64,000 bases of DNA from Streptococcus gallinaceus. GTDB taxonomy: Bacteria > Bacillota > Bacilli > Lactobacillales > Streptococcaceae. The first letter of the stretch is position 1; each line of letters starts with the position of its first letter. The stretch spans positions 186,001-250,000 of the forward strand of contig NZ_JALJXU010000001.1 in the NCBI RefSeq assembly GCF_024170225.1, given 5' to 3'. The translations under genes were made by a program, and so were the position numbers. Shown here in pieces: positions 18,922-42,702 of the stretch. The notes beneath the pieces were generated by a model. That model saw nothing but the letters and a program-made list of their open reading frames with translations, was not told the origin of the DNA and ran no database searches.

Positions 18922-18946
18922 TGTTGTTTATCTCCTTTGTGAAATA

Positions 18947-18994
18947 ATTATAAATAAAAACATTACAAGTGTCAAGACACTTGTAATGTTTTTA
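18947..18994 (-). promoter_or_regulatory. niaX promoter inside a NiaR operator and niaR terminator hairpin
   Basis: An 18-bp perfect inverted repeat (arms 18956-18973 and 18976-18993) has core half-sites ACAAGTGTC and GACACTTGT. On the minus strand its centre forms TTGACA (18970-18975), followed after 17 bases by TATAAT (18947-18952): a consensus promoter whose -35 box is the operator centre. The same repeat, followed by TTTTTATTT on the minus strand, can act as niaR terminator. NiaR binding should block niaX initiation directly. Confidence 0.85.
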
Positions 18995-24754: not shown

Positions 24755-25471
24755 ATGGGATTATTAAACTTTTTAATGAAAAAGCCGAAATCGGAAGAGA
24801 GTATAAATACTTATCAAAATACAGTAAGTGACTCCGCAAAAGAGATGTCATCAGAAAATGAAACATCTCCGCAAAAGATTCCAGCTGGTTGGCAGTCTAT
24901 TACAGATGCTTTTTTATTGTCTTATCCAGGACAAGATAAACCACGACAGTTAAGCGCCAGTCCTTCTCGCTTAGAAGGTGGAAAGCATAGCTTGGAGGGA
25001 ATTACTATCTATGATGCTGGAGATTACTGGCATTTTGTAACCTATGGCTTATCAGATGTATATGATCAAGGGACAGATACGACTAGCTTTGGGATGGAAT
25101 TTACGTATAAGCTGAAAAAATATCCTGACGACAATGAAGAAAAGGTCATCATTGGCACTGCAAACTTATTGAAAAGTTTAGCGAGTTTGACACGTGAAAA
25201 GGGTGAACTCTTTGGTCCATACGAGTATGTCTATACCGGTCAGACAGAGGGAGTTGACGTAGACCAACAGTCCCTGTTGACAGGATTTATCTGTGTTCCA
25301 GATGATACAGTAGAAAAAGTTCAGACGCCAAATGAAGAAGTCCAGTTTATTCAATTTGTCGGAGTAACAGATGCAGAACTACGCAGCTTGACAGATAGCC
25401 AATCGGTGCAACGTCTATATAGTGAGATACCAGATTTTATTACAGACTATCGTAGACAGTCTTTGAGATAA
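24755..25471 (+). CDS. SUFU-domain (suppressor of fused) protein
   Basis: A 238-residue cytoplasmic protein. After a charged, low-complexity first 45 residues (MKKPKSEESINTYQNT) it has the bacterial SUFU domain: ITYDAG-type strand ITIYDAGDYWHFVTYGLSDV, then FGMEFTYKLKKYPDD and a long helix-strand region to the end. Bacterial SUFU proteins are often immunity proteins for polymorphic toxins; here no toxin gene is adjacent, so its role is unknown. The ATG at 24755 is chosen because GGAAAGGGG precedes it; the frame is open from 24731. It directly precedes pilF, 126 bases away, and could be part of the pilus transcript. Confidence 0.8.
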   Translation: MGLLNFLMKKPKSEESINTYQNTVSDSAKEMSSENETSPQKIPAGWQSITDAFLLSYPGQDKPRQLSASPSRLEGGKHSLEGITIYDAGDYWHFVTYGLSDVYDQGTDTTSFGMEFTYKLKKYPDDNEEKVIIGTANLLKSLASLTREKGELFGPYEYVYTGQTEGVDVDQQSLLTGFICVPDDTVEKVQTPNEEVQFIQFVGVTDAELRSLTDSQSVQRLYSEIPDFITDYRRQSLR

Positions 25472-25520
25472 ATACAACACAGCAATCTTCTAACAATTTC
25501 AGTGAGGAATTGTGGTAAAA

Positions 25521-25538
25521 AATTTTGCTAGCAAAATT
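25521..25538. promoter_or_regulatory. Perfect 18-bp palindrome upstream of pilF
   Basis: AATTTTGCTAGCAAAATT between the SUFU gene and pilF. It could be an operator or an RNA hairpin; no clear promoter overlaps it. Confidence 0.5.
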
Positions 25539-25597
25539 GTATCGTTGTTCGGATGCAAAAACACAAGAGTATAAACAAACAAAAATAAAGAAAGGTG

Positions 25598-27280
25598 ATG
25601 AGTGATATAGAAATTTTAGAAATAATGGTCCGTTCGCGCTTAATCAGCGAGGGTGATAGACAAAATATCATAAACGAAATGAAAGAAACGGATACTTCTC
25701 TTGAAAAATATCTTTTGAAAAAAAAGTATGTCAATGAAGAAGATTTGCTGAAAGTGTTAAGTTACTACTACAAAACACCTCAAGTCAACCTTTCTCAGTT
25801 TTCGATTGATAAGGAAGCGGTAGCTAAGGTAACCGAAAAAATCGCACGTCGCCACTGCTTGATTCCAATTGCCTTCACAGAGGATATGGAGCCAAGACTT
25901 ATCGTTGCGATGGCAGATCCAAAAAACTACATCGCCTTGGATGATGTTCGAATTGTATCGAAGATGTCGATTGAACCACACATTGGTTTGAGTGACGATA
26001 TTCAAAAATATATTGACCAGTATTATTCACAGGGTGATGCGGCCCACCAAGCGGCGACAGAGATTGAGGGCTTTGGTGTTGAAGATGATGTCGTAGAAGA
26101 AGATATCTCAATCAAAAATTCACCTGTAGTACGCTTGATTGACTCGATTGTTAGTCAAGCTATCAAAACACGGGTATCAGATATTCACATCGAGCCATTT
26201 GAAAAAGTTGTTCGTGTTCGTTTCCGTGTGGATGGAACACTGGTTGAAAATATGCAATTAAAGGCTTCTACGCATTCTGCTATTGCGACACGGATTAAGA
26301 TTATGAGTGGCTTGGATATTGCTGAACGTCGTATTCCACAGGATGGTCGGATTGAGACTACGATTGATGGACGTGAAGTGGATATGCGTGTGTCTGTTCT
26401 TCCAACTGTTTTTGGTGAGAAGATTGTTATTCGGATTCTGAATCGGAACGCGACTCTTTTGAGTAAGGAAGAACTTGGATTTTCACCGGCCAATGAAAAA
26501 ATCTTTGATGATATCTTGAAAGCACCTGAAGGAATTATTTTGCTGACAGGGCCAACGGGGTCTGGTAAAACGACCACTCTTTACACAGCATTGCGCGAGT
26601 TAAACGATGTTGGAAAAAATATCATCACTGTTGAAGACCCGGTAGAGTATAGACTAGACGGAGTCAACCAAGTGCAAGTGAATGTCAAAGCAGGTTTGAC
26701 ATTTGCCAGTGGTTTGAGAAGTATCTTGCGTCAGGACCCGGATATTGTCCTACTGGGAGAAATTCGGGATGAAGAGACAGCAAGTATCGCTGTTCGTGCC
26801 GCTATTACAGGTCACGTCGTTCTTTCTACAATCCATACCAACGATACAGCTTCTACTGTCAACCGTCTGGTGGATATGGGAATTAAACCTTACTTGGTTT
26901 CAACAGCTACTGTTGGTATTATCGCACAGCGTTTGATTAAGCGGATCTGTCCGAAATGTAAAACGGCTTATACCGTTGAAGGAAATCAATATCAGCACTT
27001 AGGCATCCATCATGGAGACAAGCTTTACAAGGGTGAAGGTTGTAACTATTGCGGTGGGACTGGCTACTATGGTCGTATTGCGATTCATGAAATCATGGCC
27101 GTTACCAAAGAAATAAAAGCCATGATCAACCAAGGTGCGACAACTGCTGAATTGCGCAATCAAGCTCGTTCACAAGGGATGAGAGATTTGTCAGAAGAAG
27201 CAATAGAGACAGCCAAAAATGGGATAACGACAATGGAACAAGCAATGAAGATTGCCTTTAGTCTAGAGGGAGAAGCCTAA
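25598..27280 (+). CDS. pilF: Type IV pilus assembly ATPase
   Basis: Hexameric cytoplasmic ATPase that powers pilus extension (PilF in S. sanguinis naming, PilB in proteobacteria). It has 560 residues. An N-terminal MshEN/GspE-N-like region (about 5-150) precedes the secretion-ATPase core; Walker A is GPTGSGKTTTLY at about 315, the Asp boxes and Walker B follow (DPDIVLLGEIRDEET), then the His box STIHTNDTAS. A zinc tetracysteine is CPKC at about 450 and CNYC at about 481. The start GTG/ATG at 25595/25598 overlaps the ribosome site AAAGGTGATG. pilT starts one base after the stop. Confidence 0.95.
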   Translation: MSDIEILEIMVRSRLISEGDRQNIINEMKETDTSLEKYLLKKKYVNEEDLLKVLSYYYKTPQVNLSQFSIDKEAVAKVTEKIARRHCLIPIAFTEDMEPRLIVAMADPKNYIALDDVRIVSKMSIEPHIGLSDDIQKYIDQYYSQGDAAHQAATEIEGFGVEDDVVEEDISIKNSPVVRLIDSIVSQAIKTRVSDIHIEPFEKVVRVRFRVDGTLVENMQLKASTHSAIATRIKIMSGLDIAERRIPQDGRIETTIDGREVDMRVSVLPTVFGEKIVIRILNRNATLLSKEELGFSPANEKIFDDILKAPEGIILLTGPTGSGKTTTLYTALRELNDVGKNIITVEDPVEYRLDGVNQVQVNVKAGLTFASGLRSILRQDPDIVLLGEIRDEETASIAVRAAITGHVVLSTIHTNDTASTVNRLVDMGIKPYLVSTATVGIIAQRLIKRICPKCKTAYTVEGNQYQHLGIHHGDKLYKGEGCNYCGGTGYYGRIAIHEIMAVTKEIKAMINQGATTAELRNQARSQGMRDLSEEAIETAKNGITTMEQAMKIAFSLEGEA

Positions 27281-27281
27281 G

Positions 27282-28340
27282 ATGAATTTAGATGGATTAA
27301 TCAAACAAGCCATTGAACATGGTGCGTCGGATATTCATTTTACGGTGGGGGCTGAGCCAACGATGCGTTTGCACGGGAAGCTAATGCCCATTACCGATGA
27401 AAAAATGACAAATACGGACACGGTTCGATTTGCCAAAGAAATACTAACAGAAAAACAAATTCAACACCTACTTGAAGTGGGAGAAGTTGACTGTGCCTAC
27501 GAAGTTGATAATGGCTTCCGTTTGCGGGTCAATATCTTTAAACAACGAAACAACTCTGGGATTGCCTTGCGGGTTATTCCAAATCAAATTCCTAGCATGG
27601 AATCCCTCGGATTGCCAGCAGTTATAAAAAAATTGGCTGAAAAGCGTCGGGGGCTGATCTTGGTTACAGGACCAACTGGTTCAGGGAAATCAACGACCCT
27701 AGCCACGATGATCGACTATATGAACGAGCTACGTGATGAGCATATCATCACCATCGAAGATCCGATCGAGTACATGCACACACATAAGCAGTGCTTGGTT
27801 AACCAGCGTGAGCTTGGTGCGGATACACAGAGTTTTGGAAATGCCCTTCGTGGTGCTCTCCGTCAGGACCCGGATGTCATCCTTGTAGGGGAAATGCGGG
27901 ATAAGGAAACCATCGAGATTGCCCTTCGTGCGGCAGAAACTGGTCACTTAGTTCTTTCTACACTCCATACGGTCGGAGCGGTCAATACAATGGACCGTAT
28001 TATTGATGTCTTCCCTGCCGAACAGCAAGAACAAATTCGTGTTCAGCTCTCTGCCGTTGTAGAGGGAGTTGTATCTCAGCAATTGATGCGTACTTTAAAT
28101 GGGAAAGGGCGTGTGGCAGCATTTGAAATTATGCTGGCAACACCTGCGGTTCGAAACCTTATCCGTGAAGGAAAAACTCACCAATTGTTGACGCCAATCC
28201 AAACGGGAGCTAGTCAGGGCATGATTACAATGGACACCTCTCTACTTGGACTCTATCGTCGCAATCTAATTGATCGCAAGACCTTGCTTTCTTACGCAGT
28301 AGACCGTGAGCAAGTTGAAAAAGTAGTCATGATGGGGTAG
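27282..28340 (+). CDS. pilT: Type IV pilus retraction ATPase
   Basis: Hexameric ATPase for pilus depolymerisation, twitching motility and force generation. It has 352 residues. The N-terminal PAS-like domain (ASDIHFTVGAEPTMRLHG) is followed by Walker A GPTGSGKSTTLATM near residue 130, Walker B DPDVILVGEMRDKETIE and the His box STLHTVGAV. The C-terminal AVRNLIREGKTHQL matches the AIRNLIRE motif needed for retraction in PilT, which distinguishes it from assembly ATPases. It follows pilF by one base and precedes pilG by six. The presence of PilT means the pili should be retractile. Confidence 0.95.
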   Translation: MNLDGLIKQAIEHGASDIHFTVGAEPTMRLHGKLMPITDEKMTNTDTVRFAKEILTEKQIQHLLEVGEVDCAYEVDNGFRLRVNIFKQRNNSGIALRVIPNQIPSMESLGLPAVIKKLAEKRRGLILVTGPTGSGKSTTLATMIDYMNELRDEHIITIEDPIEYMHTHKQCLVNQRELGADTQSFGNALRGALRQDPDVILVGEMRDKETIEIALRAAETGHLVLSTLHTVGAVNTMDRIIDVFPAEQQEQIRVQLSAVVEGVVSQQLMRTLNGKGRVAAFEIMLATPAVRNLIREGKTHQLLTPIQTGASQGMITMDTSLLGLYRRNLIDRKTLLSYAVDREQVEKVVMMG

Positions 28341-28346
28341 AAAACC

Positions 28347-29567
28347 ATGGCAATATTTATATGTAAATATCTTGACGAAAAAAATCGAGTTCAAGTTTTA
28401 GAACTGGATGTAGATTCTAAAGGCGAAGCTCTAGCCCAGCTCCGATTAAAAGGTCGTCCCATCAGTGTGGAAGAAAAGGGACTTGGTTCAACCGAGATTA
28501 CACTAGGTGAACCTAAAAAGGTCAAAATAACAGATATTTCCCTTTTCTGTAAGCAGATGTCTGTTATGTTGGAAGCCGGTATTCCGCTTAACAATGCTGT
28601 GGATATCATGGAGCATCAAACGACCTCTAAGCCTCTCAAAGCTGCTCTGAAAAAAATGAGTACTCAGCTCAAAGAGGGGAATCAGCTTTCTCAAACGATG
28701 AAAGCGCAAGGTAAGGTTTTCCCTAATCTCCTTGTCCGTATGATTGAAGCAGGTGAAAAGACAGGTAAAATCGATGAAGTGTTGGAAAAAATGTCCGTTC
28801 ACTATACCAAAGAAGTCAAAATCAATCGTCAGATTACAGGTGCTATGATTTATCCGGCAATCTTGAGTTTGCTAGTTATCGGTGCGGTCTTTGTCCTTCT
28901 CTATGTCGTGGTACCGTCCTTTAAGGATATTTTCGAGAGTGGAGGTGTGGAGTTGCCACTACCGACACGGATCGTCCTCTTCCTCAGTAATTGGGTCCAG
29001 TCCTACTGGTATATCCTCTTGTTGACGATTATTGGTGGAACCTTTGGCTTTCTTAGCTACCGTAAGACAGAGGCAGGGCGCTTTCAGCTTGACCTACTCA
29101 AACTGAACCTTCCGATTATCAAAACTTCTATCCAAAAAATTATCACTGCTCGCTTTTCAAGTACACTAGCGACGCTAACTAGTGCGGGCATTCCATTGGT
29201 AGATGCTTTGGAAGCAGCTGCTTCAACGACCAACAATAGTGTGGTGGTGGATAAGATTGATAAGGCTAGCGAGGGAATCCAAAAAGGTGAAAATCTGACT
29301 GAGATGATTGGCCAAACTGAGCTCTTTCCTCCAATGATGCTCTCCATGGTTAAAATCGGAGAGGAGTCAGGTTCACTAGAGTCCATGCTTCATAAGACCT
29401 CTGCCTACTACGAGGAAGAACTCGAAGCTGCCATTAAGCAGTTGCTCTCCCTCATGGAACCAGCCCTCATCATCATCATGGGGATTGTTATTGGTGGTAT
29501 CGTAGCCTCTATCATGCTTCCATTGCTCGGTCTCGCAGGAGCGGTTGAGTCAGGCGCTGGTCAATAA
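28347..29567 (+). CDS. pilG: Type IV pilus inner-membrane platform protein
   Basis: Polytopic membrane protein on which the ATPases act (PilG in S. sanguinis, PilC in proteobacteria, GspF family). It has 406 residues. Two T2SSF domains are visible: the first at about residues 62-185 (FCKQMSVMLEAGIPLNNAVDI to AMIYPAIL), the second at about 265-390 (FSSTLATLTSAGIPLVDALE to EPALIIIMGIVIGG). Three membrane segments lie near 165-190, 215-235 and 370-395. It ends just before a strongly structured 220-base gap in front of the pilin gene. Confidence 0.94.
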   Translation: MAIFICKYLDEKNRVQVLELDVDSKGEALAQLRLKGRPISVEEKGLGSTEITLGEPKKVKITDISLFCKQMSVMLEAGIPLNNAVDIMEHQTTSKPLKAALKKMSTQLKEGNQLSQTMKAQGKVFPNLLVRMIEAGEKTGKIDEVLEKMSVHYTKEVKINRQITGAMIYPAILSLLVIGAVFVLLYVVVPSFKDIFESGGVELPLPTRIVLFLSNWVQSYWYILLLTIIGGTFGFLSYRKTEAGRFQLDLLKLNLPIIKTSIQKIITARFSSTLATLTSAGIPLVDALEAAASTTNNSVVVDKIDKASEGIQKGENLTEMIGQTELFPPMMLSMVKIGEESGSLESMLHKTSAYYEEELEAAIKQLLSLMEPALIIIMGIVIGGIVASIMLPLLGLAGAVESGAGQ

Positions 29568-29574
29568 AAAACTT

Positions 29575-29752
29575 GGGAGTTGCAAGACCTTCCAATAGAC
29601 AAACAAAACTGGCACTGGAGATGACCATAGGCCATTGATTGAAGGGTGAGACTGGTACAAACTATCCTAGCCTTCCCTCAATTACCTATGGCTCCTCTCA
29701 ACTGCCCCGCTTACTTTGAGAGTTTGTAGAGTCTCTCTAACTATCAAGCGGG
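29575..29752 (+). ncRNA. Structured leader upstream of the major pilin gene
   Basis: The gap between pilG and the pilin gene contains nested complementary arms: GGGAGTTG (29575-29582) with CAACTGCCC (29699-29707), CCATAGG (29625-29631) with CCTATGG (29685-29691), and a separate hairpin CCCGCTT (29706-29712) with AAGCGGG (29746-29752) enclosing GAGAG/CTCTC. The outer and last stems share bases and so may be alternatives. No T-tract follows. It may control or stabilise pilin mRNA; a regulatory role is inferred. Confidence 0.55.
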
Positions 29753-29790
29753 TCAGACCTATACATTTTGAAAAAGAAAAGGAAATAAAC

Positions 29791-30222
29791 ATGCTAAGTA
29801 AATTACAAAACATCCGTCGCAACGCTAAGAAAAAAGGGTTTACCCTTGTCGAGTTGGTCGTAGTTATCATCATCATCGCTATCATCGCTGCGGTAGCCCT
29901 TCCACGTATCGCTTCTTTCCAAGAAAGTGCTCGTAAATCACGTATCCAATCTGAACACCGTCAGTTGGTAACAGCTATTCAATCACGCATTGCCCAAGCA
30001 GCTGAACCAACAACAGAGTATGAAAAAATTACTAAGCTTGACGATCTCAAAGATTATATGAATATCAAAGGTGGAACTGTGACTTCATCTGTTGAGAAAA
30101 ACAATAAACAACCTGCTCACGTAATCGCTGATGGAAAACTAACTTCAACTTATACTAATCCAGGTGATTCTAGCAAAAATGATACATGGGAATATGTTTT
30201 TAGCCCAGCAGGGAAAAAATAA
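29791..30222 (+). CDS. pilE: Major-type type IV pilin
   Basis: A 143-residue prepilin. The class III leader is MLSKLQNIRRNAKKKG, cleaved after G16 by PilD, giving FTLVELVVVIIIIAIIAAVALP with the conserved Glu5 (E21 of the precursor); the mature protein is about 127 residues, with an alpha helix and a small beta-rich head rich in Lys, Thr and Asn. The start at 29791 is preferred because AAAAGG lies 8 bases upstream; earlier in-frame codons run through the leader hairpin. S. sanguinis has two major pilins (PilE1/PilE2); only one such gene is seen here. Hairpins flank it on both sides. Confidence 0.92.
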   Translation: MLSKLQNIRRNAKKKGFTLVELVVVIIIIAIIAAVALPRIASFQESARKSRIQSEHRQLVTAIQSRIAQAAEPTTEYEKITKLDDLKDYMNIKGGTVTSSVEKNNKQPAHVIADGKLTSTYTNPGDSSKNDTWEYVFSPAGKK

Positions 30223-30251
30223 ATAATAAAAAATAATCTATAAAACTCTAC

Positions 30252-30312
30252 CCCGACGTTTCGTCGGGTCTTATCAAAGGTCTGATACACCTCATCAGGC
30301 CTTTGATAAGAC
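30252..30312 (+). repeat. Tandem hairpins downstream of the pilin gene
   Basis: A 7-bp stem CCCGACG/CGTCGGG (30252-30268) is followed by a 19-bp stem with one wobble: arms 30268-30286 (GTCTTATCAAAGG...) and 30294-30312 (...CCTTTGATAAGAC), loop 7 bases. No T-tract follows, only GAGGAGG for the next gene. It may partly stop transcription or protect the pilin mRNA 3' end. Confidence 0.75.
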
Positions 30313-30328
30313 TATAGAGGAGGAACAT

Positions 30329-30826
30329 ATGATCAAAACTATCCGAAAAAAAAGAAAAGGTGGGACCTTGTCCATGGTGATCGTTATGATGGTCATCGTG
30401 ACAGCCACAGTTGCTCTGATGGCAGGAGTCTTAAGCACAGCCAACCGACAGACCCTACGGAATTATTACTATCTGGATGCCAAGTATGTCGCGACATCGG
30501 GTAGTCAGTTGGCGTTGGGAGCTTTCTTTGAGGGCGATGGCAAACAGTCGGGCCTCTATACAGAATTTTCTAAGCGAGCTAGCAGACAGAAAACTTCAGA
30601 TGAAAAAGTAACAGCTACTCATCAATTTGAACATGGTACAGCAGAGATTACCATGACAGGTGAGTTTAGTCCACAGACTAGCCGTTCTAAAAACGACTAC
30701 TATGTCGTCCTTACGTCAAAAGCAAAAGTTGGAGATAGTGATGATTACTATGTACATACAGTCCGTTTTAATCTGGAAAATCCAGCTTTGAGAACAGAAA
30801 AAAGTGGTATTCGCCACTCCAAATAG
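30329..30826 (+). CDS. Probable minor pilin with atypical leader (PilA/PilX-like)
   Basis: A 165-residue protein with a positively charged start (MIKTIRKKRKGG), then TLSMVIVMMVIVTATVALMAG, a single hydrophobic helix like that of pilins. The cleavage context K-G-G-T-L-S-M differs from the consensus G-F-T-L-x-E: there is no Phe1 and no Glu5, as in PilX/GspK-type or PilA-type minor pilins. The rest is a small soluble domain with YYYLDAKYVATSGSQLALGAFF. Position between the major pilin and the two modular pilins matches minor-pilin order in S. sanguinis, where PilA is a short minor pilin. The name is not assigned firmly. Confidence 0.75.
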   Translation: MIKTIRKKRKGGTLSMVIVMMVIVTATVALMAGVLSTANRQTLRNYYYLDAKYVATSGSQLALGAFFEGDGKQSGLYTEFSKRASRQKTSDEKVTATHQFEHGTAEITMTGEFSPQTSRSKNDYYVVLTSKAKVGDSDDYYVHTVRFNLENPALRTEKSGIRHSK

Positions 30827-30839
30827 AAAGAGGTAATAA

Positions 30840-32198
30840 ATGAAACAGGCAAAAAGAGGGTTCACACTTGTTGAACTTATCGTCTCCATCTCCCTAATCG
30901 CAGTGGTTTCACTTGTGCTAGGTGTCATTTCTCATACGGTCTTTGCTAGCAAGGATTTGGTTGACAAGGAAGCAACTATTCAAGCAGAAGTTCGAACCAG
31001 TATGCAAGCTGTAGATAAAAGTGTTCAAAATGCCACAGCCATCTTCGTCTTAGACGATTCAAAATACGATGGTGATGCTAAAAATTTGAAATCAGGCTGG
31101 AGCTATATCGGTCTCACAAAAGATAAAAAAAATCTAGTCAACTTTTCTTGGAACAAAGCAAAAAATACCTGGGATGAAGTTAAGTTAGGAAATCGCCATC
31201 TCTACGATATTACGATGGACCTCAAGTTCTCAAGTGATGACAACTACCAAGATAACCGCTTGGTGAACTACGAAGTTAAGGGACAGTATACCAATACGAA
31301 TAAAAAATTTGCCTTAGATTCGGCTTCCGTCGCCCTCAATACAAAACAAGTTTTCTCCCACGTTGCTAGAGGCAAGCAAGGGGTCGCCATCGCTTACCGT
31401 AATGACCCTATCGAAGGGCAGATGAATACAGCCATCAGTTTTGTCTTTGATACATCAGGATCGATGGCTTGGGATATTAACGGGGGAAAAAATAATCATA
31501 GCACATCTTCAAATATCAGAATGACTATTTTGAAAGACAAAGCAAAGAATATGATTGATGAATTGACTGACTTGGGTAACGTTAGCGTCAACCTCGTACA
31601 GTTCTCTACTCTGGGAGGCTATATCCAAGAGCAATTTGTTGATTTAAAATCAGGATCAAATACTATCAAGCAAAACATTCAAAATATGCAACCAGATGGA
31701 GGGACCAATCCTGGAGACGGTCTTCGCCACGCTATGGTCAGTCTTCAAAAAAATCCTGCCCAATTCAAATATGTTGTTCTTTTAACAGATGGAGTTCCTA
31801 ATATCTATACAGTAGGAAGCTATACTTCAAAGTATTTACGGTATGGTTACAGAGATGTATATGATTATGGTAATCCAACATTTGACTTGTCTGATAAGCT
31901 AGGAAGCAATGCAAGTAAAGATTTTTACTATGGTGATGGTAAATTTCTTCGAGAAGCTGTGAGATATACACAAGAGGTATCTAAAACCTTTGGGGAAGGT
32001 ATTCGTCGTGTTAGCATGATAGGTTTTTCTGGTGTACCATCTGAAAAAGCTTACGGTCAAGAGCTCACGAATGCTGTTAAGAATGGGAAAGTAGATGCAA
32101 ACTACTATGATGCCTCCAGTGAAGAAGATTTGGCAAAGGTCTTTTCAGATATTAAAAAACAAATTGAACAAGATCTCTGGTTTGTAGTTGGACCATAG
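30840..32198 (+). CDS. pilB: Modular pilin with von Willebrand A domain (PilB type adhesin)
   Basis: A 452-residue minor pilin. The leader MKQAKRG is followed by FTLVELIVSISLIAVVSLVL with Glu5, so it is processed by PilD and joins the filament tip. Residues ~30-190 form the pilin module, after which comes a vWA domain with a complete MIDAS: D204-x-S206-x-S208 (VFDTSGSMAW), T289 (PDGGTNPGDG) and D317 (LLTDGVPN). In S. sanguinis the homologous PilB binds host proteins through this metal site. The gene is 13 bases after the previous minor pilin and is followed 11 bases later by the lectin-type pilin. The C-terminus (WFVVGP) lacks any anchor. Confidence 0.92.
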   Translation: MKQAKRGFTLVELIVSISLIAVVSLVLGVISHTVFASKDLVDKEATIQAEVRTSMQAVDKSVQNATAIFVLDDSKYDGDAKNLKSGWSYIGLTKDKKNLVNFSWNKAKNTWDEVKLGNRHLYDITMDLKFSSDDNYQDNRLVNYEVKGQYTNTNKKFALDSASVALNTKQVFSHVARGKQGVAIAYRNDPIEGQMNTAISFVFDTSGSMAWDINGGKNNHSTSSNIRMTILKDKAKNMIDELTDLGNVSVNLVQFSTLGGYIQEQFVDLKSGSNTIKQNIQNMQPDGGTNPGDGLRHAMVSLQKNPAQFKYVVLLTDGVPNIYTVGSYTSKYLRYGYRDVYDYGNPTFDLSDKLGSNASKDFYYGDGKFLREAVRYTQEVSKTFGEGIRRVSMIGFSGVPSEKAYGQELTNAVKNGKVDANYYDASSEEDLAKVFSDIKKQIEQDLWFVVGP

Positions 32199-32209
32199 TG
32201 GGGGACTGT

Positions 32210-33700: not shown

Positions 33701-33712
33701 AAAGAAAGTAGA

Positions 33713-35017: not shown

Positions 35018-35631
35018 TGATGATGAGAGATTTAAACTTTTTTGCGACATACCATATCCCTCCTGCAAAGACCAGCACAGTTCGCTTGGCTGCGATTACG
35101 GGGAGTATACTAGCCTTAGCAGGGGTATTGCTAGGTACCTTCTATTACTACTCAAGTAACAGTAACTACGAGACAGAAATCAATAAATTACATATGTTGC
35201 TAGAAGCACCTGAAATGACACAGCAATTAGAAGAAATTGAAAAACTTCAAGTTGACAAAGCAACTGTGACAAACGATCAGACCATCTTTAAGAATTTAGA
35301 AGGTGATTTCAAACGGACTCACAAGGTTAATAGAGCTTTCATGGACTTTGTCCAAAACCGTGTGACACGCAATCTAGTCTTTGATGAATTGAGCATTTCA
35401 GATGATAAGGTGTCTATCGTGGGACTCTCAACCGAGAGACTTTCTATCGCAAAATTTGAGGAAGAATTACGAAAAACAGACAAATTTAATCATATTTTGG
35501 TCAGCACGATTGAAAATGTCGACGGTGGTGGTGCTGCAGTTGGTGTAGCAGCCAATGATCCATTTAAGGATGTATATAAATTTACTATCGAAATTGAGAC
35601 AAAGGATGTGGACTTCAGTGAAAAAAAATAA
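35017..35631 (+). CDS. pilN: Type IV pilus assembly protein PilN
   Basis: Bitopic membrane protein that docks PilM through its cytoplasmic N-terminus and pairs with PilO. It has 204 residues. The start MMMRDLNFFATYHIPP is the short PilM-binding tail (RDLNFF resembles the INLLP tail of other PilN), followed by a membrane segment at about residues 25-45 (LAAITGSILALAGVLLGTFYY) and a coiled-coil then a ferredoxin-like domain. It begins at the base where pilM ends (TAATG) and overlaps the pilO start, consistent with coupled translation of a stoichiometric complex. Confidence 0.86.
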   Translation: MMMRDLNFFATYHIPPAKTSTVRLAAITGSILALAGVLLGTFYYYSSNSNYETEINKLHMLLEAPEMTQQLEEIEKLQVDKATVTNDQTIFKNLEGDFKRTHKVNRAFMDFVQNRVTRNLVFDELSISDDKVSIVGLSTERLSIAKFEEELRKTDKFNHILVSTIENVDGGGAAVGVAANDPFKDVYKFTIEIETKDVDFSEKK

Positions 35632-37165
35632 TACTAACAAAACTGATAAGAAACCCGGGCTAAAGCTAAACAAAAAGGAAAAAACTTTGCTTGGTACAGT
35701 TGCTGTCGGTCTCGTTGCATTCGGTTGTTACAATGTTTTAAATGGTTTAGTAACTAAAAATGGTGAGCTATCGGAAGAGTACAACAGGTTGCAGTTGGAG
35801 TTTAACGAAAAATCTGCAAAGGTTGCTCGGAAAGGAGCCTTGGTTCAAGAATTGAAAAAGCTGAACAGTGATACCAATAAAGTTGCTTCTAACTATTACG
35901 GCAATACGAATCAGGGGGAATTTATCTATTTGATTGATCACCTGATTAGTAAAAGTGGCATCACTCTTCAACGGGTTGAATTTGCGGAAACAAAAGAACT
36001 AGAGTTTCCTAAAAAGGCGGATAAGGATGCAGCAGCACAAGAGAAAGATAAGAAGGCTAAAAAAACTGAAACAACTTCCTCAACAACAAGTGCTTCAAGT
36101 ACAGGTACTTCGACGTCAACGTCAACAAGTACAAGTTCTAGTTCTGCTGCTGAAACACAAAAAAGTGCTGCGCCAGCTACACAGTCAGATAACGAGGCAG
36201 AAAACAAGTATGCCAATACGAATATCACACAAATGACAGCTGATATTAGTTTCTCAGGAACCTATTCTCAGGTGTTGGAATTATTGAAAATGATTGATGC
36301 CAATGAGCGTACAATCGTATCAAGTGAATTGGACTTGGGTTCTCCTAAGGCCAAGCAAGAAGTGGATAGAATTGATCCGCTGATTGAAAAAGGGCATATC
36401 AAACTAAGATTTTACCAAGTAGAAGATGTAGAACGGTATGTCAGCAAACCAGCTAGCAATGTAGATAAGACACCGATTCCATTTGCCCATGTGGCTTCAC
36501 CATTTAAGCGTGCATCTTGGTTGTCTATCTCTGAAGATGGTGGTAAAAAATCAGATTCAAAATCAGATTCAACATCGTCAGGTAATTCGTCGGATGTGGG
36601 TTCTGGTTTAGGATCAGCTCCTGGACCAGCTTATCTTCAACAATTGGCCAACTCAACCAGCAATACAGGTGGAATTTCAGCTTACTACAATACCTCAACA
36701 CTTTATCGCTTTGAAACAAACTTAAAATTGAAAAACAAAGCCAATAATGCAGAGACGGACGTTACGGTTGATACCGGTGACTTCCTTGAAGGTACGGGTT
36801 CGAATGTTGTGCAAATTCCTGCAAGCAAAGAAAAAGTCATCTATGAAATGAGATTGCAAGATCCATTTATTACATTAAATGAAAAACCAGATTATATCCT
36901 TTTCGACTTCCATAGTTCTAAAAAATGGGACGGCAGCTTGGGGATGATTGTTGAAAATGCGAACGGTCAAGAAATCCAAGTCGGTTTATTGGAAGGCTTG
37001 AAATGGGAAGGTTGGCGTGAAGCTCGATTTGATCCTGCCAGCGTGGCGAGCTTGACATATCCATTGAAGGTAAAAGGTTTCTACTTTGAAACACCAAATA
37101 CCAATAGTGATGGAACAACCCTAAAATTGGATAATTTTGCTATTCAGAGTTTGATATCCAATTAA
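35618..37165 (+). CDS. pilO: PilO-like assembly protein with long Ser/Thr linkers and C-terminal domain
   Basis: A bitopic membrane protein of 515 residues, much longer than typical PilO (about 200). A cytoplasmic lysine-rich tail (KKNNTNKTDKKPGLKLNKKE) precedes a membrane segment at about residues 27-45 (LLGTVAVGLVAFGCYNVL), a coiled coil and a PilO-like core split by a Ser/Thr tract (36066-36170) and ending near residue 270. A second disordered stretch (DSKSDSTSSGNSS, about residue 310) leads to a C-terminal domain of unknown type. The GTG at 35618 is preferred: it overlaps pilN by 14 bases and gives MKKNNTNK; the ATG at 35606 has a ribosome site too close. Function by context. Confidence 0.8.
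   Translation: MKKNNTNKTDKKPGLKLNKKEKTLLGTVAVGLVAFGCYNVLNGLVTKNGELSEEYNRLQLEFNEKSAKVARKGALVQELKKLNSDTNKVASNYYGNTNQGEFIYLIDHLISKSGITLQRVEFAETKELEFPKKADKDAAAQEKDKKAKKTETTSSTTSASSTGTSTSTSTSTSSSSAAETQKSAAPATQSDNEAENKYANTNITQMTADISFSGTYSQVLELLKMIDANERTIVSSELDLGSPKAKQEVDRIDPLIEKGHIKLRFYQVEDVERYVSKPASNVDKTPIPFAHVASPFKRASWLSISEDGGKKSDSKSDSTSSGNSSDVGSGLGSAPGPAYLQQLANSTSNTGGISAYYNTSTLYRFETNLKLKNKANNAETDVTVDTGDFLEGTGSNVVQIPASKEKVIYEMRLQDPFITLNEKPDYILFDFHSSKKWDGSLGMIVENANGQEIQVGLLEGLKWEGWREARFDPASVASLTYPLKVKGFYFETPNTNSDGTTLKLDNFAIQSLISN
36066..36170 (+). repeat. Low-complexity Ser/Thr coding tract in pilO
   Basis: Imperfect repeats of ACNAGT/TCNACN codons encode a Ser/Thr-rich linker. The tract could vary in length between strains through slippage. 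Confidence 0.7.
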
Positions 37166-37181
37166 AAAGTAAATTTGTGAT

Positions 37182-37211
37182 TCATAGAGCAAGACCAAAC
37201 AACCTCTATGA
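37182..37211 (+). repeat. Hairpin downstream of pilO
   Basis: Perfect 8-bp arms TCATAGAG (37182-37189) and CTCTATGA (37204-37211) with a 14-base loop; no T-tract. The 175-base gap holds no clear promoter. Confidence 0.6.
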
Positions 37212-37340
37212 GTACAACTTACTGTAGCATTTTTTAACTTTTAGTTCATATTGAGTCATGGTTTGAGTTCGTAACACATTTCTCTGTATGTAAAGAAACA
37301 ATGAAAGAACGAACAAGGAATAAAAAAGAAGGAGGAAATA

Positions 37341-38591
37341 ATGGCGTATTTACAAATGTTTGGCCTAACATTCATCATAATTCATACGATTAGTATTATG
37401 TTTGTAGCTAAGTTGGAGATAGCAAAGCGAATCTTTCTAGCGATATGGATGGGAATGTTTGTCTTTTTCCTTCCTAGAATGTATCAATATTTACAAGCAA
37501 GTCCACTCTATTTTGGTGGTCTATGTGCGGGTATTTTTGGTATCTATACAGTCTCACTATTTTCACAAAATATCCGAGACTACATAGAACATTATAAACA
37601 GATTAAGAAAACTAGAGAAACTAGAGAACTATTCTTTGTCAGTGAGACACAAGTAGAGGAATCTTTCATAGAGAATCCTGTATACGGTAGTTTATTGATG
37701 GATAAAACGGAAGCTGTAGAAGATGATACCCAAGAACTGTCTCGCTTGAAATCAAGACAAAAGGATAAAAAGACAAGCACCAAATCCTCTACCGATAAAG
37801 TGATACAGATGCCTTCGAAAAATGTATCACAACCTGCGAAAAAAAACATGCCTTCACGGGAGGAACAAGCATACGATCAACCAAATCGTATGAGTTTAGA
37901 GGAAGAGTTTTTAGCTGTTGATAAAAAAGAAAACACTGATAAAGTTACGCCAATTTCGTACCATTCTTCCACATTTGAACCACAACAAACCTCTATAAAA
38001 GAGGTGGACAATATGGTATCTCAAACCTTATCTAAACTGGACAATTTGTTTTCAGGCAATATGGATAAGGAAGAATCAAATAATTTATTTATTGAAAAAG
38101 AATCTCCTGTGCATCTGGAATCATCGGCAGAACAACCGATGGATGTTACGGTGACGGATGAAGAGGAAGAGATTTTGAGAGAAATTGAAATCATTTTTTC
38201 TCAACATAAGGACCAAGAATCACCAGTTACTGTACATAATAAACAAGCACAAGATGACGTGATTTTAACCGTTAATCCATTGTCGGGCGAGGCGGTTGAA
38301 TGGGTGAAAACGAAGAAAACAGAAGAACCATATTTCAATACTGAGGAACAAATTGATAAAGAAATCTATTTCCGATTCTTATTATTTGAAATTCGTGAGT
38401 TGTTAGTGTTGGGCTTTTATCAGGAAGCGGTGGATTATTTGAAAGAGATTTTGATTGATTCTTACGACAAGGAAATTCGTCAGAATGCCCTTTGTTTATT
38501 GGAGTTAATTCGAGTGGAACTCTATAATCCACATATTAGTGAAACCATAAGAAATGAATATAAGTTTTTAGAGGAGCGTAAAGTATTATGA
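37341..38591 (+). CDS. Membrane protein of the pilus locus, FimV-like architecture
   Basis: A 416-residue protein not matched to a named family. Residues 1-75 hold about three hydrophobic segments (LTFIIIHTISIMFV, IFLAIWMGMFVFFL, FGGLCAGIFGIYTVSLF). A long, charged, probably disordered region (about 95-320, rich in Lys, Glu, Ser and Gln) follows, and the last 90 residues are a helical repeat (FRFLLFEIRELLVLGFYQEA and LKEILIDSYDKEIRQNALCL), like a TPR unit. Membrane anchor, acidic linker and C-terminal TPR is the layout of FimV/TspA polar hubs of proteobacterial pili; this is resemblance of architecture only. AAGGAGGAAATA precedes the ATG. Its stop overlaps the next ATG (ATGA). Confidence 0.75.
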   Translation: MAYLQMFGLTFIIIHTISIMFVAKLEIAKRIFLAIWMGMFVFFLPRMYQYLQASPLYFGGLCAGIFGIYTVSLFSQNIRDYIEHYKQIKKTRETRELFFVSETQVEESFIENPVYGSLLMDKTEAVEDDTQELSRLKSRQKDKKTSTKSSTDKVIQMPSKNVSQPAKKNMPSREEQAYDQPNRMSLEEEFLAVDKKENTDKVTPISYHSSTFEPQQTSIKEVDNMVSQTLSKLDNLFSGNMDKEESNNLFIEKESPVHLESSAEQPMDVTVTDEEEEILREIEIIFSQHKDQESPVTVHNKQAQDDVILTVNPLSGEAVEWVKTKKTEEPYFNTEEQIDKEIYFRFLLFEIRELLVLGFYQEAVDYLKEILIDSYDKEIRQNALCLLELIRVELYNPHISETIRNEYKFLEERKVL

Positions 38592-39778
38592 TTAGTTGCA
38601 AGTCGGTCATTGGAACTGCAGTAATTGAAATTGAAAAAGGTGTGGGACTTGGAGAAATTCATCAAGTTGTCGTGGACAAGGGAGTTACGCTAACTTTTGT
38701 TGTCAAATCACGACAGGAAGACCCATCGCACGCTTTAATGATTGGAAATAATATTTATGGTATTGGTAATTTTGCAGCAACTGTGAAAAATTCAGATGCA
38801 TTGAAGGCCATTACACAAGATGAATTACAACTTCTTGTAGATAAACAAGGTGTGATCATCGATGAAATTGTTATTACTGTCGATGGAAATAAAATTGGTC
38901 GTGTAACAGACTACTTTATTGATAATGAAAATGAAATTGGCTTCTTGCTAGTTGATCCTGAGAATGATGGAGAAGTATTCCAAATTCCTAAATCACAAAT
39001 TTTAATGATTGGAAAAGAGTACATCATTTTAAATGAAGAATGCAACACTGTGGAAGCAAGTGCCCAGGCAAAAATGATTGATGTTCCAGCTAAGCCACGT
39101 CCAGCTTTAGAAAGAGTTGAACAACAAGCTGAGATTGCTGTTCCTCAAAAAGTAGAACCTGTAGCAGAACCTACTTTCAATGAGAAGCCAGCTCCTAAAA
39201 AAGAAATAAATTCATGGATACCTGAAATGGATACTAACATCGAAAATGATCAAAATTTTGATTTAGATGCTATGTTGGCAAATCTAAAAACTAGTGAAGA
39301 TTTTTCAGATTTGAATTCTTCTATGAAAGTTGAAGAAACGATGCCACAGGAAATACCTGCGCTTGAGTCAATGGCAATTGAAAGCACATCTTTGAAACAA
39401 TTGAAAGAAGATGAAGTAACAGCTGAAACACCGAAACAATCATTAGAAGATATCTTTGCATCATTTTCAAACAATGATACTCCAAAAGAAGTCCCAGTAA
39501 AACGCGATGAGTTTCAAATTCCAGTAGAATATGAAACCATTACGGAGCCTGTGATTCACCATCAAGTGGTACCAATGACAGTTGCAACTGATGAAACGAA
39601 GAGTTATGTCGACAATCAAAAACGACTTTTGCTTGGCAAAAAATTGCAAAAAAATCTACTGAACTCAGATGGTAGTGTGCTTCTTTATGCGGGTGAAGTT
39701 GTAACAGAAGAAATGATTGACTTGTTGCGTAGAATTGACAGACGATTGTTGGTTCGTTTGGCAGGGAGTGTAGGCTAG
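38588..39778 (+). CDS. PRC-barrel protein of the pilus locus
   Basis: A 396-residue soluble protein. The first 155 residues contain two PRC-barrel-like units: SVIGTAVIEIEKGVGLGEIH and ITVDGNKIGRVTDYFIDNEN, small beta barrels that bind proteins or RNA in other systems. A long acidic, Pro/Glu-rich linker (about 160-330) follows, and the last 50 residues form a separate module (LLLGKKLQKNLLNSDGSVLL, AGEVVTEEMIDLLRRIDRR) resembling the small strand-turn unit found before HD-GYP domains. No catalytic domain is seen. It overlaps the preceding gene by four bases and is one base from the next, so it is a co-translated component of the pilus operon. Role unknown. Confidence 0.75.
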   Translation: MISCKSVIGTAVIEIEKGVGLGEIHQVVVDKGVTLTFVVKSRQEDPSHALMIGNNIYGIGNFAATVKNSDALKAITQDELQLLVDKQGVIIDEIVITVDGNKIGRVTDYFIDNENEIGFLLVDPENDGEVFQIPKSQILMIGKEYIILNEECNTVEASAQAKMIDVPAKPRPALERVEQQAEIAVPQKVEPVAEPTFNEKPAPKKEINSWIPEMDTNIENDQNFDLDAMLANLKTSEDFSDLNSSMKVEETMPQEIPALESMAIESTSLKQLKEDEVTAETPKQSLEDIFASFSNNDTPKEVPVKRDEFQIPVEYETITEPVIHHQVVPMTVATDETKSYVDNQKRLLLGKKLQKNLLNSDGSVLLYAGEVVTEEMIDLLRRIDRRLLVRLAGSVG

Positions 39779-39779
39779 A

Positions 39780-40823
39780 ATGAAGGGAAGATTTTCAAAG
39801 TATCAACCTTTCATTCCCCTAGGTTTAGTTTTGCTCTTTATGCTTAGCTTGCTGCTATATGTTATGACGATCTATAAACCAAGTTTGCCCATGAGTATAA
39901 ATGACAAAAAGACTCTACATGTTCATTCGAGAAGTGAAGCAGAAGTTGCAGTATACAAAAGCTTACCCTACAAAGCGAGCTTTGAGCTGTCAACAGGGCA
40001 TTCCTTCTCAATGGATATGCGATTGCTAGGATTGAGTTATTTTTCAAAAACGGAATTAGAAAGTTTAGATAAAATTTCGAATACCAATCTATGGGATAAG
40101 TTTGTACCATTTTTTGAAACAAAACAAAATCAACTCTTATCAATCTATTCAAAACGGTTATTTTGGTTGCAATCTTTAGAAAAATCGATTCAAAATTTTC
40201 CGGATTTATTAAAACAAGAACCTGAAACCAATCATTTGATTGCTAGTCCGGATAATCAACTGACGGTATCAGCTCCTGTAGATGGGTACGAAATTCAAGC
40301 TCAAAACTTTATTGCCGCTGCTCAGAATATCAATAAAACAGCTCAATTTGAACATATTCCTTTAGAAGCCAATCTCATCGGTGCCGAGGATCAATCCTGG
40401 AATTTATCTCAATACACACAATTTATTGATAAGGCAGAATTACCGCTTTCAGATGATGCTGTTCAAAAACACAACCAAGAATTAGCATTTCATAAATTGC
40501 AAAATGTGTATATTGCAGCTGGTCAAAGTGTCAATTTTTCAGATGTTATTGGTAAGTTGAACAAGAAATCAGGTTACCTAGCAAGTGTTGTCAATGGGAC
40601 AGAAGTTTATGGAACCGGTGTCGAGTTAGTGGTGGATGCCCTTCAATCACTGACATTTAAACACATGAAAGTAGATTCTTACAAAGGTAAGGCTTTCAGC
40701 ATTGGAGATCCAGGCAAGGAATTCACTCAACTTTCTGTGACAAATACAAGTCAGAACGATGTCGTTCTTTCTCTATCAAAAGAAGGCTCACAATTAACAA
40801 TTGTACTAGCCAGCAAACAATAG
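39780..40823 (+). CDS. Membrane-anchored exported protein, weakly VanW-like
   Basis: A 347-residue protein. A positive start (MKGRFSKYQPF) and one membrane segment at about residues 10-30 (LGLVLLFMLSLLLYVM) place the rest outside the membrane. The C-terminal third, with AAGQSVNFSDVIGKLNKKSGY and VNGTEVYGTGVELVVDALQS, resembles the VanW-like fold core seen in peptidoglycan-associated proteins, although the usual G-G-G-x-C-Q is replaced by G-T-G-V-E-L. Function is unknown; location suggests a role in passage of the pilus through the wall. It starts one base after the PRC-barrel gene. Confidence 0.72.
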   Translation: MKGRFSKYQPFIPLGLVLLFMLSLLLYVMTIYKPSLPMSINDKKTLHVHSRSEAEVAVYKSLPYKASFELSTGHSFSMDMRLLGLSYFSKTELESLDKISNTNLWDKFVPFFETKQNQLLSIYSKRLFWLQSLEKSIQNFPDLLKQEPETNHLIASPDNQLTVSAPVDGYEIQAQNFIAAAQNINKTAQFEHIPLEANLIGAEDQSWNLSQYTQFIDKAELPLSDDAVQKHNQELAFHKLQNVYIAAGQSVNFSDVIGKLNKKSGYLASVVNGTEVYGTGVELVVDALQSLTFKHMKVDSYKGKAFSIGDPGKEFTQLSVTNTSQNDVVLSLSKEGSQLTIVLASKQ

Positions 40824-40831
40824 ACAGTTAG

Positions 40832-40864
40832 GACCGAATCATTTGGTATATCCTTTATTCGGTC
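40832..40864 (+). repeat. Hairpin upstream of pilD
   Basis: GACCGAAT (40832-40839) pairs perfectly with ATTCGGTC (40857-40864), loop 17 bases, no T-tract. It lies in the 136-base gap before pilD. Confidence 0.6.
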
Positions 40865-40959
40865 ATTAACTGGACTTGCCTAGTAGGAAAAGCGAAGGCA
40901 AAAACTACAAAATAAACTCGAGGAGAAGATGTGATTTTAAAACAGAAGAGGAGTATGAA

Positions 40960-41727
40960 ATGGCAGTATTAGTCTTTATCCTAGGGCTCGTATTTGGTAG
41001 CTTTTATAATGTTGTCATTTATAGAGTTCCACTTGAAAAAAGTATCATCAATGGTCGTTCAGCTTGCCCAAACTGTTCACATGTTCTAGGTGCTTTAGAG
41101 TTGATTCCGCTTTTATCCATTGTTATTCAAGGGTTTAAATGCAAACACTGCAAGGTACCGATTTCTCCGCGGTATTTTATCGTGGAATTGCTAACAGGTA
41201 CGCTGTGGTGGGGAGCCTATTTGCTCTTTATTGACCAAGGGATATGGATGGTTATCTCGGCTTGTCTATTGATTTCTCTGGGGATTATCGTAGGCTATAT
41301 TGATTTTGATACCCATTTTATTTCTGATATTGTTCTACTGATATTTTTAGTTGGGCGGTTGAGTTTGATCTGGCTGACAGGGGAATCCTATTTGGAAACC
41401 ATTTGTTCCATGCTCGTAGCTTTAGTGGTCTATGGTGCCATTTATTGGTTGGCAAAATTCTATTATAAGCAAGAAGCATTTGGTCCTGGCGACATTACTT
41501 ATTTGATTACGCTTGGTAGTTGGTTTAGACCGCTTGATATTGCACTGGTCGCGATCGGTTCGTTTTTTATCGCTGGACTGTTACTGCTAGTCATAACGTT
41601 CATTGCAAAACTGAAATTTGATGCGAAGAAGGAAATCCCCTTTGGTCCTGCTATGAGTATTATGGCTATTTTATTCTATTTTTGGGGAGATTATATAAAG
41701 GAGTTATATATTCAATGGGTATTTTAA
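40960..41727 (+). CDS. pilD: Prepilin peptidase / N-methyltransferase
   Basis: Aspartic membrane protease that removes class III leaders of pilins and usually methylates the new N-terminus. It has 255 residues. The cytoplasmic zinc-type loop has C36-x2-C39 (ACPNCSH) and C61-x2-C64 (CKHCK), typical of bifunctional enzymes. The catalytic aspartates are in GYIDFDTH (D115 or D117) and GPGD (D178). About seven to eight membrane segments are visible. The ATG at 40960 is preferred to 40876 because AGAGGAG lies at the right distance and the protein then starts directly with MAVLVFILGLVFGSFYNVVI. The next gene overlaps its end by 13 bases. Confidence 0.94.
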   Translation: MAVLVFILGLVFGSFYNVVIYRVPLEKSIINGRSACPNCSHVLGALELIPLLSIVIQGFKCKHCKVPISPRYFIVELLTGTLWWGAYLLFIDQGIWMVISACLLISLGIIVGYIDFDTHFISDIVLLIFLVGRLSLIWLTGESYLETICSMLVALVVYGAIYWLAKFYYKQEAFGPGDITYLITLGSWFRPLDIALVAIGSFFIAGLLLLVITFIAKLKFDAKKEIPFGPAMSIMAILFYFWGDYIKELYIQWVF

Positions 41728-42335
41728 ATAAAAAAATAAGAGGCATGCACCTGATGACAACAGGCTTGATTGGTGGCTCTCTTGTTATCGGATTGTTATT
41801 TGGTCAGCACATTATGGCCAATCACCAGGAGAAAATTAATCCTGCAGATATTTATATTTCAGAGAATTTTAGTTCAAATGGTGGTGGCGTTATTCTGTTC
41901 TCAGAAGATGTTACGGTTCCTTCAACGGTATCGGCTGATTTTATCAACAGTCGTTTAGAAGGGACAAATATGGCTGGTTTAGGTCAGGCCTTTAAAAAGG
42001 CTGAGAAAAATTATGGCGTAAATGCTATCTTTTTAACTGGATTGGCTATTCATGAATCTGATTACGGAAGAAGTCAAATAGCACAAGTAAAAAATAATTT
42101 ATTTGGTTTTATGGCATATGATTCTAGCCCATTTTCAAGTGCCGGCTACTTTGAATCATTTGATGCTTGTATAGACTACGTTGCACGCTATTTGAGTCAA
42201 CATTATTTGAAACCGGATGGCATGTACTACAACGGAAAGAGTATTGCGGCAATTAATACTCGCTATGCATCCGATAAAGGATGGTCTGAAAAAATTGCTA
42301 TTCGTATCCGTACTTTCTTAAATTTAAATAAATAG
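41715..42335 (+). CDS. Membrane-anchored glucosaminidase-like muralytic enzyme
   Basis: A 206-residue exported protein. An N-terminal membrane segment (TTGLIGGSLVIGLLFG, about 15-30) is followed by a glucosaminidase domain (LytG/FlgJ-like, PF01832-type) from about residue 85: the catalytic glutamate is E114 in LAIHESDYGRS, then KNNLFGFMAYDSSPF and YVARYLSQHYL. It should cleave peptidoglycan glycan strands. ATG 41715 is chosen because MGILNKKIRG starts just after AAAGGAG at 41698 and overlaps pilD by 13 bases. Tight coupling to pilD suggests that it opens the cell wall for the pilus. It is the last gene before the operon terminator. Confidence 0.88.
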   Translation: MGILNKKIRGMHLMTTGLIGGSLVIGLLFGQHIMANHQEKINPADIYISENFSSNGGGVILFSEDVTVPSTVSADFINSRLEGTNMAGLGQAFKKAEKNYGVNAIFLTGLAIHESDYGRSQIAQVKNNLFGFMAYDSSPFSSAGYFESFDACIDYVARYLSQHYLKPDGMYYNGKSIAAINTRYASDKGWSEKIAIRIRTFLNLNK

Positions 42336-42611: not shown

Positions 42612-42654
42612 GGGGGTGGTGCCTATGTTTGTATGAAGTTAAAAGATGCGATCA
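42612..42654 (+). other. Possible relic of a small hydrophobic (holin-like type I) toxin gene
   Basis: GGGGGTGGTGCCT followed by ATGTTTGTATGA resembles the initiation region of small type I holin-like toxins in Firmicutes, whose products begin M-S-V-Y-E or M-F-V-Y-E. Here the frame stops after three codons. The resemblance is from memory and rests on a short sequence only. Confidence 0.25.
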
Positions 42655-42702
42655 CATAAACTACTGTTAATTACTTTTAGTTATTTTAATACTGGAGGAT
42701 GT

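Follow-up and report, generated by a model that had tools for sequence, protein, structure and literature searches.

A 64,000-nucleotide stretch of the Streptococcus gallinaceus genome (RefSeq assembly GCF_024170225.1, contig NZ_JALJXU010000001.1, positions 186,001 to 250,000), referred to here as the window, carries a pil locus, a set of genes for a type IV pilus. On the + strand, between 25,595 and 42,335, the list of open reading frames (ORFs) and the family scans place pilF-T-G-E-A-B-C-M-N-O-I-J-K-D-lyt in this order, with 15 of 15 frames open, alaS on the left flank and nrdF/nrdE on the right (Table 1). The pil locus of S. sanguinis 2908 (PMC4832360) agrees with it in all 15 genes and their order, and likewise has a large PilO and both of the RNA elements described below. 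Gene content, open frames, motifs, synteny, the identity step at the edges, and the conservation and covariation of the RNA elements, all read from the sequence, make it very probable that the type IVa pilus locus here is complete and of the S. sanguinis type, that it lies in a block of 22-24 kb that was likely exchanged horizontally, and that it is predicted to make one retractable adhesive pilus.

Components of the pilus machinery

The extension ATPase, the platform protein and the prepilin peptidase are all present with their motifs kept, and the PilM_2 and PilN matches exceed the Pfam cut-offs. The single pilE codes for a major pilin with a class III signal peptide (GFTLVEL, with Glu5), accompanied by the minor pilins PilA, PilB (vWA) and PilC (lectin-like); relatives named PilA, PilB, PilC and PilE1 are solved structures in the PDB. 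PilT and the motility genes pilI, pilJ and pilK are also present, and lyt adjoins pilD in all seven loci compared. The Walker boxes of PilF and PilT, AVRNLIREGK of PilT and GFTLVEL of PilE match those of four other loci. In the alignment of five loci, the degenerate signal of PilA, the CxxC pairs and GxGD of PilD and the Glu region of Lyt were likewise kept, and DTSGS of PilB, kept in the window, was altered in two of the aligned loci. In PilT, AVRNLIREGK stands at the site of the retraction motif. The preliminary description of this DNA had proposed a complete locus in this gene order, between alaS and the nrd genes; both order and location were borne out. It had also proposed a type IV pilus, probably retractile, in a Streptococcus other than S. 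sanguinis; this is supported, the pilus being of type IVa, and PilT has Walker boxes and AVRNLIREGK. The start that it gave, 24,755, is indeed that of the SUFU gene of the block, but not that of pilF, which begins near 25,595.

Identity between the window and S. sanguinis 2908 runs from PilT (88%), PilF (80%), PilG (67%), Lyt (65%), PilD (62%), PilE and PilB (55% each), PilN (51%), PilM (48%), PilJ and PilK (47% each), PilC and PilO (45% each) and PilA (42%) to PilI (32%). In the sections of PMC4832360 used here, ten proteins are needed for S. sanguinis piliation, while PilT, PilI, PilJ and PilK serve motility and not piliation; all of these have counterparts in the window. In the same sections, Gurung et al. 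name the remaining genes from left to right, their pilH corresponding to pilO, so that the three genes after pilO are pilI, pilJ and pilK. These three genes, put forward earlier as unnamed, match those of S. sanguinis by position and sequence and are not supported as a difference from it. An extended PilO had been listed as a difference; this is not supported either, as the PilO of S. sanguinis has a comparably large size (56.6 kDa), and a large PilO is a monoderm trait according to the parts of PMC6916266 drawn on. On this ground we rejected the PilO extension as an oddity of this strain. The single major pilin, by contrast, is a real difference, with two to three pilE copies in seven named S. 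sanguinis loci and one in the window, but it is not unique, since one pilE is also found in the streptococci BSJ31 and X13SY08 and in G294, a genome of another family; a metagenome-assembled genome (MAG) of Streptococcus has two. The S. sanguinis locus also lies at another chromosomal site, with other neighbours. The adjoining transglutaminase-like and Mga-type genes hold as a proposed difference too: present in the window, neither turned up in about 35 kb of sequence surrounding two S. sanguinis loci.

Clostridial type IVa pili, likened here by description, have PilM/N/O with a larger monoderm PilO, plus PilT, in the passages of PMC6916266 consulted. The competence (Com) pilus of streptococci has an ATPase, a platform protein and pilins related to those in the window, and families of this kind are shared with type II secretion systems. 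As far as the accounts used here describe them, Com pili are without PilT and PilMNO, and the type II secretion system is defined by the absence of PilT. The window holds PilT, PilM/N, PilI/J/K and modular minor pilins, and the comG-type locus of the source genome sits on another contig (C6), so the pil locus is not the competence pilus. A competence pilus or secretion system in place of a twitching pilus is accordingly most improbable, and we rejected it.

Table 1. Features of the pil locus and of the surrounding block (window coordinates).
Feature	Position	Strand	Support
SUFU-domain gene, left edge of high-identity block	24755..25471	+	Pfam SUFU E 9e-20
pilF, extension ATPase	25595..27280	+	T2SSE E 1e-134, MshEN; 80% to S. 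sanguinis 2908; Walker motifs
pilT, retraction ATPase	27282..28340	+	T2SSE; 88% to S. sanguinis 2908; AVRNLIREGK
pilG, platform protein	28347..29567	+	T2SSF E 6e-63
Element I, leader hairpin, near-invariant loop UUUGU[A/G]G[A/G]GU, 55 nt before pilE	29715..29740	+	
pilE, sole major pilin	29791..30222	+	N_methyl; PDB 8pfb PilE1 E 3e-21
Element II, tandem hairpins, pilE-pilA gap	30243..30318	+	minimum free energy -40.5, z -8.0; covariation; covariance model
pilA, minor pilin, degenerate signal	30329..30826	+	PDB 7o5y PilA E 1e-24
pilB, vWA modular minor pilin	30840..32198	+	VWA_2; PDB 7b7p PilB E 5e-136; DTSGS motif
pilC, lectin-like modular minor pilin	32210..33700	+	PDB 7oa8 PilC E 3e-96
pilM	33713..35017	+	PilM_2 E 4e-20
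pilN	35017..35631	+	PilN E 5e-7; RDLNFF close to N terminus
pilO (pilH of Gurung et al.)	35606..37165	+	45% to S. sanguinis 2908 orthologue; structure model
PilO C-terminal module, predicted beta-sandwich	36686..37156	+	models, fold searches
pilI	37341..38591	+	NCBIfam NF049862 SSA_2305_Nterm E 1e-41; synteny
pilJ, PRC-barrel protein	38588..39778	+	PRC E 2e-6; 47% to 2908 orthologue
pilK, VanW-like	39780..40823	+	VanW match under Pfam cut-off; 47% to 2908 orthologue
pilD, prepilin peptidase	40876..41727 (likely start near 40960)	+	A24_N_bact, Peptidase_A24; CxxC pairs, GxGD
lyt, glucosaminidase-type muralytic enzyme, membrane-anchored or secreted	41715..42335	+	Glucosaminidase E 1e-15
Secreted transglutaminase-like protein, inside block	42646..44625	+	Transglut_core E 3e-11
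Small secreted protein, inside block	44660..44992	+	
Mga-type regulator, right edge of block common with X13SY08	45405..46919	+	Mga E 2e-14

Distribution and probable exchange of the block

PilM was present in 16 of 284 Streptococcus genomes: the source genome, BSJ31 (95%; deposited as S. gallolyticus), X13SY08 (90-93%, in three pieces), the MAG (47%), eleven genomes at 49%, seven of them named S. sanguinis, and G218, whose contig ends inside pilM. At the family level, 16 of 335 genomes had it, all from one of ten genera. At the order level the count was 10 of 395, and the only full-length match outside Streptococcus was that of G294, whose locus has the identical 15 genes in identical order; among the seven genomes of the genus of G294, one further genome gave a weak partial PilM match only. 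At the class level, 89 of 398 genomes matched PilM, beyond the genus in part only and at E 1.6e-14 or worse. Relatives of PilO or PilK were found by protein search in S. oricebi, S. panodentis, Streptococcus sp. DD11, sp. 20-1249 and sp. X16XC17, one search scoring the best 7,982 candidates by shared words. The locus has been described as restricted to S. sanguinis and absent from other streptococci, in the portions of PMC4832360 and PMC6916266 used here, and our search of the literature available to us found no report contradicting this; a search on type IV pili of S. suis gave nothing on point. The pil locus described here contradicts the published restriction to one species.

Identity at 4-fold-degenerate sites was compared between block and flank, dropping matches below 50% identity and genes with fewer than 60 aligned residues (first comparison, sufu to lyt) or fewer than 50 (right-side extension), and excluding the transglutaminase-like and mga genes from the block medians. 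Against BSJ31, the median was 75.7% from sufu to lyt (n = 16) versus 44.7% in 17 flank genes, all on the left side (Mann-Whitney p ~1e-4); against X13SY08, it was 73.7% (n = 16) versus 43.1% (n = 14, both sides; p ~2e-6). The left step lies between alaS and sufu, and the right step either between tm254 and cpbp (BSJ31, with 77% in tm254, then 23% in cpbp and 48% in nrdF) or after mga (X13SY08). The Mga-type gene, at 69% (X13SY08) and 68% (BSJ31), and the transglutaminase-like gene are part of this high-identity block in each of the three related islands. BSJ31 and X13SY08 hold this block at the same site between alaS and nrdF as the window. In pil-less relatives the distance from alaS to nrdF is 4.3 kb (G002) or 3.5 kb (G154), the site in G154 reading alaS, a 63-amino-acid ORF, xre, TM, CPBP, a 433-amino-acid ORF and nrdF. 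In the window, the block lies between alaS and the xre-TM-CPBP trio (names assigned by eye), and the interval from lyt to nrdF holds the transglutaminase-like gene, the small secreted protein, the Mga-type gene and this trio. Because the identity step spans 16 consecutive genes against two species, the block likely entered the interval between alaS and nrdF by horizontal exchange between Streptococcus species, after the species had split.

Vertical inheritance from a streptococcal ancestor, with loss in most lineages and no recent transfer, would fit the identical site in three species and the guanine-plus-cytosine content of the block (36-44%), a range that partly coincides with that of the flanks (39-47%), even if the right part of the block has rather low values. 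It is nevertheless unlikely, given the step at the block edges against two species, the small share of the genus that has PilM, and the other sites at which S. sanguinis and the MAG (G239) carry the locus, alaS and nrdF of S. sanguinis G195 standing together on another contig. Moreover, the alaS of the window is about equally close to those of G002 (89%), which has no pil locus, and of X13SY08 (87%), which has one. Placement of the locus by an assembly artefact or contamination is barely credible, as it is embedded in a 475-kb contig, the genome is listed at a contamination of 0.01, and the same neighbours are seen in X13SY08 (both sides, one contig) and in BSJ31 (left and right on different contigs). 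A recent mobile element with an integrase was also rejected, no integrase having been seen by eye and no tRNA gene found in the 64-kb window.

The copy in X13SY08, an isolate from Murray cod eye (PMC4706332), is decayed. Twelve of its 15 pil genes (all except pilE, pilD and lyt) are disrupted, with matches in at least two frames or, in pilO, a stop; pilD and lyt are fused in one frame, and the transglutaminase-like and mga genes are also split over two frames. In this check, from which matches below 60% identity were dropped, the ten genes compared upstream of alaS (two of them matched over partial length) and nrdF/nrdE each matched in one frame. The X13SY08 alaS, expected to be essential, is itself split over two frames (L078+L024+L025), a sign that the assembly may contain errors close to the decayed block, so part of the decay may be sequencing error. 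The state of this copy makes a decaying, non-functional remnant in S. gallinaceus conceivable, but quite improbable, since 15 of 15 frames are open in both the window and BSJ31 and the examined motifs are kept.

Some further features were noted in and around the block. Among the compared pil loci, only the BSJ31 and X13SY08 islands also have a SUFU-domain gene such as that at 24755-25471. Close relatives of the transglutaminase-like protein were found only in the three island genomes, and remoter ones (43-47%, C-terminal part) in five other genomes of the genus, with at most four candidates scored per genome; a literature search on transglutaminase yielded nothing of direct use. Downstream of lyt, a SepM-like gene (so named by eye) is the next gene in the MAG (L027:6141-7190) and the third in 2908 (L028:4602-5678), and there is none after lyt in the window. 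In PilJ (38588-39778), the C-terminal part weakly matched a NosR-family response regulator (E 0.0015, far below cut-off). A consensus promoter scan was uninformative (39 found versus 50.9 expected from shuffles), and the locus tags looked for in PMC8579931 were not there.

RNA elements around pilE and the PilO module

Two hairpin elements flank pilE. Element I lies in the gap between pilG and pilE, 55-77 nt before the first pilE ATG at 12 of 12 loci measured, and all 16 pil genomes that could be examined have it. Its 16-base motif occurred exactly, and once each, in 13 of 17 pil-bearing genomes versus none of 50 pil-less genomes of the genus (G001-G050, out of 268 without PilM); three of the four misses (G189, G193, G190) have one mismatch, and in the fourth, G218, the pil contig ends before pilE. 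The motif was derived from loci that it later matched, and a reversed control gave one match in 67 genomes (G006). A further stable fold (z -4.1) was seen upstream of Element I, at 29568-29715, and in BSJ31 too, not obviously in distant loci.

Element II has a minimum free energy in the window of -40.5 kcal/mol (z -8.0), and none of 200 shuffles was as low. Across 12 loci, 99.3% of its cells are paired and 10 of 24 pairs carry changes on both sides; its covariation score tops all 500 shuffles and all slid versions, and its pair types were reached by 2 of 500. The covariance model found one place in 16 of 17 pil genomes and in none of the 50 pil-less ones. This search was run with stricter filters, its opposite-strand rows being the same palindromic place, and, as the RNA alignments use 12 loci, four of the 16 matched genomes (G190, G191, G192, G194) lie outside the model. 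In loci with two or three pilE copies, Element II was found solely after the last one. Because it sits between the major and the minor pilin genes, Element II suggests a role in setting the pilin ratio.

That these hairpins are ordinary terminators or a DNA operator, and not a dedicated RNA device, is possible, at somewhat less than even chances. The motif of Element I indeed forms a spaced inverted repeat as well, readable in principle by a DNA-binding regulator, two of its five pairing measures are not above shuffles, and tandem hairpins are able to end transcription. On the other hand, no U-run follows the long stem of Element II in the loci examined, pairing in its stem 2 is kept though 9 of 19 pairs have changed on both sides, and pilA begins directly after the stem. 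Rfam gave no family at cut-off over 19,000-50,000 and, at a relaxed threshold over 29,560-30,340, only weak microRNA, small RNA and thermometer matches, far below cut-offs; a literature search on stem-loops in S. sanguinis pilin genes gave nothing on point.

PilO has a putative PilO-like N-terminal part, Ser/Thr-rich linkers and the C-terminal module. As modelled, this module would resemble in fold the FlaA1 flagellar sheath protein and carbohydrate-binding module (CBM) families 30, 27, 28 and 11, among others, with 5-16% identity in the rows shown, and re-alignment of whole PilO gave rows spanning residues 360-517 almost exclusively, with hardly any coverage of the middle part. It has been speculated that the monoderm PilO anchors to, or crosses, the wall (in the parts of PMC6916266 drawn on). 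From the structure models, the module is a candidate wall anchor resembling carbohydrate-binding modules. We give roughly even chances to a broader proposal, in which Elements I and II form a previously undescribed structured RNA pair clamping pilE, a portable ratio-setting device carried along when the locus passes from one species or family to another, and in which the wall problem is met by a PilO fused to a glycan-binding module together with a muralytic enzyme.

Proposed working of the pilus and its meaning

From a mechanistic point of view, PilD would mature PilE as well as the minor pilins PilA, PilB and PilC, and PilE would be polymerised by PilF on PilG, with PilM/N/O. PilB (vWA) and PilC (lectin-like) may act at the tip as adhesins, and retraction and twitching would be driven by PilT with PilI/J/K. 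Elements I and II would probably act on the transcript through protection, processing or partial termination, so that far more of the major pilin than of the minor pilins would be made. Through its C-terminal module, PilO may tether the machine to wall glycan, and Lyt may open the peptidoglycan.

Several points weigh against parts of this interpretation. Piliation and retraction are predicted from homology, and, judging from the decay in X13SY08, at least one lineage can do without the locus. Regarding the exchange, ptsH- and ptsI-like genes outside the block reach 90.9 and 72.1 in 4-fold identity against BSJ31, and two genes that lie upstream of alaS, at 18388-19513, reach 91-96% where most neighbours are at about 45%; this is likely a separate recombination tract. 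Such exceptions mean that codon bias and other recombination also raise 4-fold identity locally. Moreover, no integrase or transfer gene was seen in the block when its ORF lists were read by eye. Support for the Element I helix is weaker, with 93.8% of cells paired and four of eight pairs changed on both sides, and its double-changed pairs and pair types were reached by 53 and 216 of 500 shuffles. PilO gave no sequence match at cut-off in Pfam, NCBIfam or PDB, and its module matches a common beta-sandwich, the top row being the flagellar sheath protein and not a CBM. Lyt, going by the gene count in the sections of PMC4832360 used here, would be among six of 21 S. sanguinis locus genes without a reported role in piliation or motility.

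Not recognised in the preliminary description were the probable horizontal exchange, the two conserved RNA elements and the PilO C-terminal module. The RNA elements and the PilO module, the newest parts of this work, apply to the S. sanguinis model too. The distribution of the locus is patchy and probably shaped by horizontal exchange, extending to BSJ31, X13SY08, a Streptococcus MAG and one genome of another family in the order. Gram-positive pili can be compared across these independent systems, among which are simpler ones with one pilin. The PilO module gives a testable form to the published speculation on monoderm PilO and the wall (as worded in the parts of PMC6916266 consulted), and the conserved RNA elements offer a concrete, testable proposal for how the amounts of major and minor pilins may be set.

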